The notes under the pieces: generated by a model | Told to the model about the DNA's origin: nothing | The model's database searches: none | The model's input: only the letters and a program-made list of their open reading frames with translations | Made by a program: the position numbers and the translations under genes | Source of the DNA: Dioscorea cayenensis subsp. rotundata | Taxonomy: Eukaryota > Streptophyta > Magnoliopsida > Dioscoreales > Dioscoreaceae | Reading direction: 5' to 3' | Length of the DNA stretch: 64,000 bases | Assembly (NCBI RefSeq): GCF_009730915.1 | Contig: NC_052480.1 | Span: forward strand, 186,001-250,000 | Part shown: piece after piece, positions 9,173-12,607 of the stretch | How the letters are laid out: every line of letters begins with the position of its first letter | Numbering within the stretch: position 1 is the first letter of the stretch

Positions 9173-12100
9173 ATGGCCTCCTGCGACGACGACTTCAGTC
9201 TCCTCGGAGACGAAGCGCAGTCCCATCCCCATGCTCAACATCAGCATCACCACCATCATCAGCACCACCATCACCAACAGCAGCCGCCCTTCTCCACACC
9301 CCATCGCTATGTTGCCAAAGCTGTGCCTCCCATACGATCCCACCTCGGCGCCATCCCCAGCCCCAAGAAAGACGTGGATGGTCGTCGAGCGGATGATGAC
9401 GACGAATACGGTGAGGCCTTTGCCGCCGCCCAGTCGGAGGCCACCAAATCTTACCACGACGTCAACTCTCACCATCACTGCTTCGCGGACGAGGACCCTG
9501 GCGCCAATCCGTTCGGACCCCGGCCTACTACCGAGGACGAGGATGAGGACAACGGCAATAACAATCCGGATCTCAAGTCCCGAGCTGCAGCCCAGCAGCA
9601 GCTCGGTCCCGCTGCCATCTGCCGTTCGGAGCCCAAGCGCAAGGACCGGGACGAGCTCAGCGATGGGGGGTCTCCTTACTGCTTTAACAGCAAGAAGTCA
9701 AGGCCGTCGTCGTCGTCGGGCGACTACAGGAAGGACCGCGAGGAGTGGAGCGACTCAGCCATCGGGTGCCTGCTGGATGCCTACACCGACAAATATGTGC
9801 AACTGAACAGAGGAAACCTGCGGGGAAGGGACTGGGAGGACGTCGCCACCATCGTGAGCGAGCGATGTGACAAGCAGAAGTCGGGTAAGAGCGTGGAACA
9901 ATGCAAGAATAAGATAGACAACCTAAAGAAGCGGTACAAGGCAGAGTGCCAACGCCTCACTAGTGGCAGCCTCGCTGTCAGCCACTGGCCTTGGTTCAAG
10001 AAGCTTGAGCAGATTGTAGTCCCCTCCTCCTCCTCCTCCAAGCCCCAGTGCGAAGATGACAAGTCCATCACGCTTGGTGGCTCTGCTTCTGTCACCAGGC
10101 AAACCAAGAGGTAAATTCTCTTCTTCTTAATAATTATTTGGTATAAAATGTTCTATTTTAGTTTTGGTCCTATCAGGGATTATGTTATGTTATCCTCTTT
10201 CTTTAATTTGCCTCTCTTTACAAAACATTTTCAACTCAAATAGCTTTTGAGGAGGAGGTTGCTCTGGTGTTGAACAAGGCATCAATCCGCGAATAACCCA
10301 CCCATGTAATGAAATAAGCTACCCCCATACTTAATTGGTTGCTCTATACCTGTGATTTTGTTGGACCATTATTCCGTATGTTTTGCCGGGGCAGTATAGA
10401 GTAACTAATTTCCCTAGAAGAGAGGTATGTTTTTACACTGAATGATTATTCTCACGCAGGTACTCGGTTTCCACACCTGGTGCTGTTGGTGTAACAAATA
10501 ACGTGAAAATGAAACAATTGTCAAGCCCAAGATGGAAGAGAGTGGTTTTGAAAATTAGTGGTGCTGCATTAACTGGGAACGGTCCACAAAATGTTGATCC
10601 TAAGGTGAGTTGTTGCTTATACCACACAAAGATGGGTGCTAAATGAGAAGGCATGTTACTGTTCTTAACTCAGAATTTGCAATGCTGGTTTCCTTCAGGT
10701 GGCAATGCTAATTGCTAGAGAAATTGCAATGGCTAACCACGCAGGAGTTGAGGTAATCTGTGTCCTTGAAGTCAGGGTAAAAATTATGCCTTCTCACCTC
10801 TTTCTAAATTTTGTTAAATCACACTCTTTTCATGGGTTTGGTGTTAATCAGGTGGCAGTTGTTGTTGGAGGACGAAATTTCTTTTCTGGGGATTCCTGGG
10901 TAGCAGCTACTGGTATTGATAAAGCTACAGCCTACCAGATTGGGTTTGTATTCCATCTTTTATTGTTCTTAATTTGCTTTTGCTTTATTAATGGCCGAAC
11001 GATCACTCTCTTACTGTAACTAGCAATTGGATCACTCTCTTACTGTAACTAGCAATTGGATCACTCTCTTACTGTAACTAGCAATTGAATCATATCCTCA
11101 CATTGATGCGTGCAATAAGACTAATGTGGGAGTCCATTTTATTATACGTGGGATAGCAGTTGGACTCCATACAACTGTGACATGTAACTTTCTGAAATTT
11201 AAGCATTATTATTTTCTTGAAAACCATATTTTAAAGAAGTACAATATGGATATATGCAGGTTGTGGGAAATTTATAAATGAATACATCACTCTCTTTTTT
11301 GGGTATATAATATATTTTGGAATTCCAAAATAGTTGTTTAAGGCAACCTTGGGAAGTTTGTTTATTTATGTATAATCTATATAGCAGAACCAGATGCTTG
11401 ATGTTTACTCAAGATTTACTATCTATTATATCATTGTACTATTAACTTGTTGCAAAAATCTGTGAATAATGTCTGGATGCGTAAACCGATAGTTATGATC
11501 ATATTATCACTGATGTATATGTCGTAAGTATCCTATTGATATAGCCAACATAAACATCAAACCCCTTGTGTCTGTGTTTTACATTCATTAATTGACCCTT
11601 TGATTTAATTTATTCCCTACATTCAGCTAAAGAAAGAAATCATTCAATGTGGGGATTTGTGATTTCTGATGAAATTTCACACGCTTCAGTGTTTGGGGAT
11701 TTGTGATTTCTGAGGAAGTTTTGCTTTTCTGCTTGTTTAGGGTTCTGTTCATATGCCAGTTCATTACTTCATACCAAAAAATTAAAAGCGTAGATTTCGG
11801 AAAATTGTTATGAACTCTACCTGACATGTAAATTATTAGCAGCATGATGGCATCTGTGATGAACTCTATGTTGCTCCAAGCATCTCTAGAGAAGATTGGG
11901 GTTCCAACACGTGTACAAACTGCATTTACGATGCAAGAGATTGCTGAACCCTACATAAGACGTCGAGCTATCCGGCATCTTGAAAAAGGAAGAGTGGTGA
12001 TATTTGGTGGAATTGGTGCGGGAACTGGAAGTCCACTTTTCACCACTGATGCAGCAGCGGCTCTTCGAGCCTCTGAAAGTATTTTTCTCCTACCTGTAGA

Positions 12101-12607
12101 ACAAAATCCTCCAGACCTTTCTTGTATTCAATGTTGATATTGGTGCTAACTGTCTCTCACACTAGCTTTTGGTCACGAGCTAGAAAAGCAGATTTCTTAT
12201 GCTTTATTATTTGGGCAGTTAATGCTGATGCTGTCCTCAAGGGTACCAATGTGGATGGTGTTTATGACTGTCATCACAGAAACAGCAACATGCAGTTCGA
12301 GCACATTTCTTTCAGGGAGTTAGATGCAAGAGGCATTAGTGCCATGGACATGACTGCAGTTTCATTCTGTGAAGAGAATGGTATTCCTGGTTGGTTTTTT
12401 GCTTATCATCTCCCCTATTATTTTATTTGGTACCAACGACCTATAAATGTGAAAAATGCTTTTATGAATATGGCATTTATCATGATTTTTTTCTCCCCTT
12501 TGATGGCAGTCGTACTTTTTAATTTGCTGGAACCAGGCAACATTTCAAGGGCACTTTGTGGAGAGCAAGTTGGTACCCTTGTAGACCAGTCTGGAAGGAT
12601 TAGCTGA
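9173..12607 (+). CDS. Trihelix (MYB/SANT-like) DNA-binding domain fused to a UMP kinase-type domain
   Basis: Seven exons with matching phases: 9173-10110, 10460-10604, 10699-10752, 10852-10943, 11843-12078, 12219-12389 and 12510-12607, giving 577 residues. Exon 1 is GC-rich. It encodes an acidic, His/Gln-rich, low-complexity N-terminus and then a trihelix domain with its three spaced Trp residues ([36 protein letters not shown]) and a basic linker. Exons 2-7 encode an amino-acid-kinase fold of the PyrH/UMP kinase type: [13 protein letters not shown], the glycine-rich [23 protein letters not shown], then [15 protein letters not shown] and [19 protein letters not shown] kinases convert UMP to UDP with ATP. 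The exon 1 to 2 junction splits one Arg codon in frame, so this is a true fusion and not two genes. I recall one Arabidopsis locus (AT3G10030) with the same arrangement. Whether the kinase is active, and where the protein acts, is unknown; no transit peptide is evident. Confidence 0.88.
11001..11087 (+). repeat. 29-bp tandem repeat, three copies, intron 4 of trihelix-UMPK gene
   Basis: Three head-to-tail copies of a 29-bp unit beginning GATCACTCTCTTACTGTAAC start at 11001, 11030 and 11059. They are essentially identical, so the array is young. It lies within the 0.9 kb intron between 10943 and 11843. Confidence 0.9.

Follow-up and report, generated by a model that had tools for sequence, protein, structure and literature searches.

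Does the stretch between positions 9173 and 12607 (+ strand) of this DNA encode a single protein in which a DNA-binding trihelix domain is joined to a UMP kinase-like enzyme, and, if so, is the kinase half of such a protein still an enzyme or rather part of a regulator? We addressed this question by computational analysis of the window, i.e. the whole stretch of 64,000 nucleotides, which corresponds to positions 186001-250000 of its contig and is part of a 584-Mb assembly.

Gene structure and domains

Splicing of the seven exons at 9173..12607 in silico yielded a coding sequence of 1734 bases and, as had been predicted originally, a single protein of 577 amino acids, in which the sole stop codon is the final one. 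All six introns have GT-AG borders, with phases 2, 0, 0, 2, 1 and 1. The anticipated division of an arginine codon by the exon 1/2 splice was found as well (AG/G, Arg313), and all later phases fit. The start codon lies in the context CGCCACCCCATGGCC, with an in-frame stop 15 bases upstream.

All features described here lie on the + strand. Exon 1 (9173..10110) encodes an acidic and histidine-rich N-terminus, a basic stretch (KRK ... KKSR), the trihelix domain and a linker, and is separated by intron 1 (10111..10459; 349 bp, phase 2, GT-AG) from the exons apparently derived from a UMP kinase (UMPK) gene, a plastid-type copy of which was found in the same genome. Exon 2 (10460..10604) codes for linker and the N-terminus of the kinase and ends in NVDPK; its phase of 0 at this end is the same in the plastid UMPK gene. 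Exon 3 (10699..10752; 18 codons) agrees with the respective plastid UMPK exon in length and phases, and exon 4 (10852..10943; 92 bp), which carries the changes G58R, R62S and D77Y, agrees with its own plastid counterpart in length. Exon 5 (11843..12078), with the nucleotide-regulatory site and an FTTD motif, is 9 bp longer than its plastid counterpart because an inserted Gly-Gly-Ile requires it. Exon 6 (12219..12389) carries D174H, and exon 7 (12510..12607) contains the C-terminus and the TGA stop codon.

Both domains were recognised by profile searches. The trihelix domain (9737..10015, residues 189-281) matched the Pfam family Myb_DNA-bind_4 (PF13837) with E=1.3e-15 and 58 bits versus a cut-off of 27. 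The kinase half matched the whole AA_kinase profile of Pfam (residues 339-550, E=8.5e-32) and the NCBIfam profile pyrH_bact (TIGR02075; residues 339-570, 10536..12583 when spliced, E=3.7e-71). Since the latter match covers profile positions 2-232 of 233, the domain, rightly assigned to the PyrH type but initially described as almost complete, is in fact complete. In the PDB, the kinase half matched entry 8yh1 at 6.5e-66, and a search with the trihelix domain gave no match at E up to 1. AlphaFold2, run without alignment on the trihelix piece, produced five helices with a mean pLDDT of 45.8, a model too poor for a fold search. By analogy with Arabidopsis AT3G10030, the domain may be of the SIP1 type. 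A chance origin of the domain calls is excluded by the E-values and by the five introns that the kinase half has in common with its plastid paralogue.

We are almost certain that trihelix and kinase are parts of one fused protein. The exon 1/2 splice was inferred from the DNA alone; retention of intron 1 would lead to a stop at the codon directly after the split arginine codon, and the fusion protein therefore depends on this splice. Alternatively, the locus might give two products by an internal promoter or alternative splicing, namely a trihelix protein that ends early, one codon past the split codon if intron 1 is retained, and a kinase-like protein starting from an in-frame ATG (Met330, 10509..10511) located 5' of the kinase domain. 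The fall in exon GC3, from 0.715 in exon 1 to 0.27-0.44 past the exon 1/2 junction, would agree with such a division, but GC-rich first exons are common in plants. In addition, the splice sites are clean, the phase matches, and the Arabidopsis homologue AT3G10030, in line with a locus of the same type mentioned in the original prediction, is listed as 'Trihelix/aa-kinase chimera, vegetative development' in a Brassica rapa study (PMC5526864). Two separate products thus seem very improbable.

Origin of the kinase half

The plastid-type UMPK gene of the same genome (G000:C25; L110) was spliced to 330 residues plus stop. Its N-terminus, MAISSPSLLVSSHPSSLP, is serine-rich, acid-poor and, judged by eye, transit-peptide-like; by the same judgement, the N-terminus of the fusion protein lacks a transit-like start. 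All five kinase introns of the fusion gene lie at the identical alignment column and in the identical phase (0, 0, 2, 1, 1) as those of the plastid-type gene, and 143 of the 261 aligned residues of the two kinases are identical. In a tree of 52 rows, which left out 31 of the 39 Bacteroidota, the fusion and the plastid copy were sisters (98/93), with end branches of 1.41 versus 0.59, respectively. Both plant proteins also have an extra residue, Trp395, in common, which occurs in none of the 80 bacterial PyrH sequences (best 80 of 593). On the evidence of the shared introns, the sister placement and Trp395, the kinase half can be taken to be a fast-evolving duplicate from the nuclear plastid-UMPK gene line that was joined behind a trihelix exon, and we have hardly any doubt that the two kinases share their origin. 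The same match of intron places to the plant's own plastid-UMPK gene rules out that the kinase exons are a bacterial contaminant, that they belong to a separate neighbouring gene, or that the kinase of the fusion had an independent bacterial source.

Further copies were searched for across the genome. The search for AA_kinase domains ran exon by exon with 19 candidates, so that a PyrH-like gene of short exons could escape it, and gave 16 matches, one of which was exon 6 of the fusion gene itself. The other 15 fell into 13 loci, and among these, when compared with the window kinase, the plastid-type gene was the only PyrH-like one. In the search with exon 1, in which only the best candidates were scored, exon 1 matched itself at 100% and 27 others at 28-46% identity, and no second trihelix fusion was found among these candidates. 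As far as the searches reached, the fusion gene is single-copy. In five of 10 trihelix paralogue loci (out of 19), namely L092, L095, L096, L097 and L107, a single open frame of 317-328 residues contains the whole domain, which would fit an intronless donor of exon 1.

A cyanobacterial root of the plant PyrH-like proteins seems plausible but was neither established nor rejected by the trees. With the fusion as the only plant row and other long rows omitted (5 long loci, E. coli and 31 of the 39 Bacteroidota were left out), the fusion joined the cyanobacteria (85/99), and its grouping with the Actinomycetota was still allowed (p-AU 0.321). In a tree keeping the long rows, it joined a long actinobacterial row (100/81), a placement that is likely a long-branch artefact. 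When the plastid copy was included, a grouping of the two plant proteins with the cyanobacteria had a p-AU of 0.373; for the plastid copy with the cyanobacteria but without the fusion, this value was 0.08.

Active site and regulatory site of the kinase half

The kinase half was aligned with 80 bacterial PyrH sequences and E. coli K-12 PyrH (b0171), and then with the plastid copy; positions are given in E. coli numbering. The bacterial reference set consisted of the best 80 of 593 confirmed PyrH stretches, which were selected for their similarity to the window protein, and is hence not random. Eight changes were found in the fusion (E19A, G58R, R62S, R73K, D77Y, T84S, D174H and A181N) at positions that are identical across all of the best 80 of 593 bacterial sequences, E. 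coli and the plastid copy. Thus, the fusion has Arg387 (10873..10875) for Gly58, Ser391 (10885..10887) for Arg62, Tyr407 (10933..10935) for Asp77, which contacts the UMP ribose, and His507 (12272..12274) for Asp174 of the ATP site, all four of which are kept in E. coli PyrH. Moreover, it has a Gly-Gly-Ile insert (residues 465-467; 12006..12014) beside the UMP-binding loop that is absent from 80/80 bacteria (best 80 of 593), E. coli and the plant's own UMPK. K15, S17, T138, T145, D146 and D201 are retained.

At the 73 columns conserved in the bacteria (best 80 of 593), we counted 14 differences for the fusion, 2 for the plastid copy and 15 for E. coli PyrH. The last of these is an active enzyme, so that inactivity cannot be judged from how many of the 73 residues are altered, but only from which ones. 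The E. coli equivalents of the nucleotide-site residues of the Thermus thermophilus enzyme are K15, S17, G58, R62, D77, T138, T145 and D174, according to the structure paper on the latter (PMC12404492). Of 8 conserved substrate contacts, the fusion has lost 4, compared to changes at 10 of 65 other conserved columns (Fisher p=0.039) and 0 of 6 allosteric columns among the 73 (p=0.07); both tests rely on low counts and on columns that are not independent.

The same paper cites a substantial drop in activity for E. coli mutants of R62, D77 and D174; in its sentence on these mutants, one E. coli residue is printed as 'Asp69', which appears as Asp77 in the list of equivalents given there (PMC12404492). 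For S. aureus UMPK, the D75A mutant (equivalent to D77) is described as markedly impaired and a mutant of R60 (equivalent to R62) as keeping partial activity (PMC12847342). Judged from its residues, the fusion protein probably lacks effective UMP kinase activity. The original prediction of an active enzyme of the UMP kinase type, or of a moonlighting kinase, is therefore not borne out, R62, D77 and D174 now being Ser, Tyr and His. A genuine UMP kinase that is tethered to DNA or moonlights in the nucleus would account for the close PyrH homology, which reaches 54% identity among the bacterial sequences (best 80 of 593) and includes the 143/261 identities to the plant's own UMPK. Such an enzyme is, however, difficult to reconcile with R62S, D77Y, D174H, G58R and the Gly-Gly-Ile insert, and with the TIGR02075 score of 239.4 bits, slightly under the curated UMP kinase equivalog cut-off of 243.9, which the plastid paralogue clearly exceeds with 317.2 bits. 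We give this reading very little credence.

Since Lys15, Ser17, Thr145, Asp146 and Asp201 are kept, the fusion protein could perhaps catalyse some phosphoryl transfer, possibly to another acceptor. A neofunctionalised kinase that still moves phosphate from ATP, but to an acceptor other than UMP, would be in line with the many acceptors of the amino-acid-kinase family and with the changes at D77 and R62, which are expected for a new acceptor. On the other hand, Asp174, the ATP-side contact (PMC12404492), is also lost (His507), and G58R and E19A lie in nucleotide-binding loops, which makes this alternative unlikely.

The regulatory nucleotide site of S. aureus UMPK is reported to consist of R101, K109, R118, R119, R122, K126 and R128, and its allosteric loop to contain E113 and P114, of which E113 is essential (PMC12847342). 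We mapped these residues by an offset of 2, derived from R60/D75 versus E. coli-type R62/D77. In the fusion, 8 of the 9 residues of this GTP/UTP regulatory site are as in S. aureus (R433, E445, P446, R450, R451, R454, K458 and R460), and the exception, K109 to Q441, concerns a position that also varies among the bacteria (best 80 of 593). Of the S. aureus dimer-interface residues, 2 of 6 are the same (M84 and D70); the other four positions are variable among the 80 bacteria too (best 80 of 593), or the letter of the fusion occurs there. These residues neither support nor exclude an oligomer of the fusion's kinase fold, which would thus be weakly backed.

These observations also bear on a structural pseudoenzyme, in which the kinase fold would multimerise the DNA-binding domain or bind partner proteins without any nucleotide sensing. 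This would explain why catalytic contacts are lost, yet 59 of the 73 conserved columns are kept, and PyrH enzymes are indeed hexamers (PMC12404492). Without a ligand, however, more loss would be expected at the allosteric nucleotide site than one residue of nine, and we rate such a purely structural role as rather doubtful. The nucleotide sensing proposed originally is, in view of the same eight residues, possible and may even be favoured.

Proposed role and known relatives

The loss of key active-site residues makes a regulator more likely than a working enzyme. In our best explanation, which we put forward with moderate confidence, the locus is a nuclear gene for a nuclear DNA-binding protein that consists of a trihelix domain followed by a degenerate, probably nucleotide-binding copy of plastid UMP kinase. 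The protein would act in the nucleus on trihelix-type sites, and its kinase fold would no longer phosphorylate UMP efficiently, but could mediate oligomerisation and bind a regulatory nucleotide, with GTP or UTP as candidates. Nucleotide status could thereby alter DNA binding, although we propose a nucleotide-responsive regulator only tentatively. More speculatively still, a duplicated plastid-type UMPK gene might have been captured behind a trihelix exon and have come to provide a nuclear transcription factor with its ligand-sensing half; its catalytic site would have decayed, its GTP/UTP site and proposed hexamer would have been kept, and the result might be a regulator of leaf and chloroplast development that is gated by nucleotides. 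If this is true, a plant transcription factor would carry a sensor built from a metabolic enzyme of the very pathway that it perhaps watches, and one could interpret the small, pale AT3G10030 mutant as a case of faulty nucleotide signalling and not of lost enzyme activity. The prediction is that the fusion protein binds GTP or UTP but has no UMP kinase activity, which cautions against the label 'uridylate kinase' for the fusion gene. A precedent is E. coli PyrH, which is itself part of the pyrimidine-dependent control of carAB transcription.

Trihelix/aa-kinase fusions have been described before from other plants, and the present one is not the first: besides AT3G10030, a black spruce sequence carries the same 'Trihelix/aa-kinase chimera' wording, as a description only. 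AT3G10030 has been placed in the SIP1 family (PMC4783932), and its mutant is described as short or small, with deformed or distorted and light-green or discoloured leaves (PMC4783932, PMC6686422, PMC6482567). It is listed among the Arabidopsis factors studied by DAP-seq (in vitro DNA binding) and is one of the four most methylation-sensitive of these in one study (PMC7920552). In a table from DAP-seq or ChIP-seq target lists, it is given the figure 751 among 27,206 genes (PMC7516213), which we read as its target count. The original remark that the function of such fusions is little studied is therefore fair for the mechanism, but mutant phenotype and DNA-binding data are already in print. For rice Os4g33300, which has a C-terminal kinase domain and is called a chimera, a loss of the trihelix domain is stated (PMC4195496; data not shown there); some plants may thus do without the fusion. 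In the open-access literature searched, 'trihelix' and 'UMP kinase' were not found together, and 'trihelix' and 'uridylate kinase' occurred together in one paper; neither of the two points added here, the shared-intron origin and the prediction that UMP kinase activity has been lost, was found stated.

Compared to known systems, the fusion gene resembles AT3G10030 in that a trihelix and an amino-acid-kinase domain are named for one gene, a likeness by the label 'chimera'; in the fusion gene itself, both domains lie in one reading frame. The plant's own plastid UMPK shares with the fusion the five introns and their phases, the sister position in the tree and the 143 identical residues, but differs by its transit-like N-terminus (by eye), its intact G58, R62, D77 and D174, and the absence of trihelix domain and Gly-Gly-Ile insert. 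Elsewhere, plastid UMP kinase is represented by DPT1 (At3g18680), also called PUMPKIN, in Arabidopsis and by YL2/YGL8 in rice. Rice YL2 is reported to be an active UMP kinase (PMC5999181). With E. coli K-12 PyrH, the fusion has in common the whole domain, K15, S17, T145, D146 and D201, and R103 and R130 of the regulatory site; it differs by G58R, R62S, D77Y, D174H, E19A and the three-residue insert. Finally, the metallo-beta-lactamase/trihelix chimera At5g63420 is a similar case of a plant trihelix domain joined to a bacterial-type enzyme domain, but is set apart, by its description, through another enzyme and another trihelix clade (PMC4195496).

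Base composition and introns of the fusion gene

Along the gene joining the trihelix and UMP kinase-like parts (window 9173-12607, plus strand), GC3 amounts to 0.715 in exon 1 versus 0.27-0.44 in exons 2-7, and this steep fall coincides with the junction between the trihelix part and the kinase part. Introns 3 (window 10753-10851, 99 bp) and 6 (window 12390-12509, 120 bp) are both multiples of three in length and contain no in-frame stops, so that the reading frame would be kept if either of them were retained. The kinase half would thereby gain 33 residues from intron 3 or 40 residues from intron 6. 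Intron 4 carries a tandem repeat (window 11001-11092) of 3.2 copies of a 29-bp unit with 98% matches.

Neighbouring features

Upstream and on the same strand, the end of an NPH3 domain lies within an open frame (window 6989-7534). Approximately 1.4 kb downstream of the fusion gene, we found a retrotransposon Pol polyprotein fragment with a Pol_BBD domain (window 13959-14210).

Other amino-acid-kinase loci

Two further amino-acid-kinase genes or pieces lie about 33 kb apart on one contig of the same genome. In L083/L084 (G000:C16:22088299-22088992), the domain is divided between two adjoining matches; L082 (G000:C16:22122105-22122821) consists of one long open frame and, judged by eye, was taken for an N-acetylglutamate kinase.
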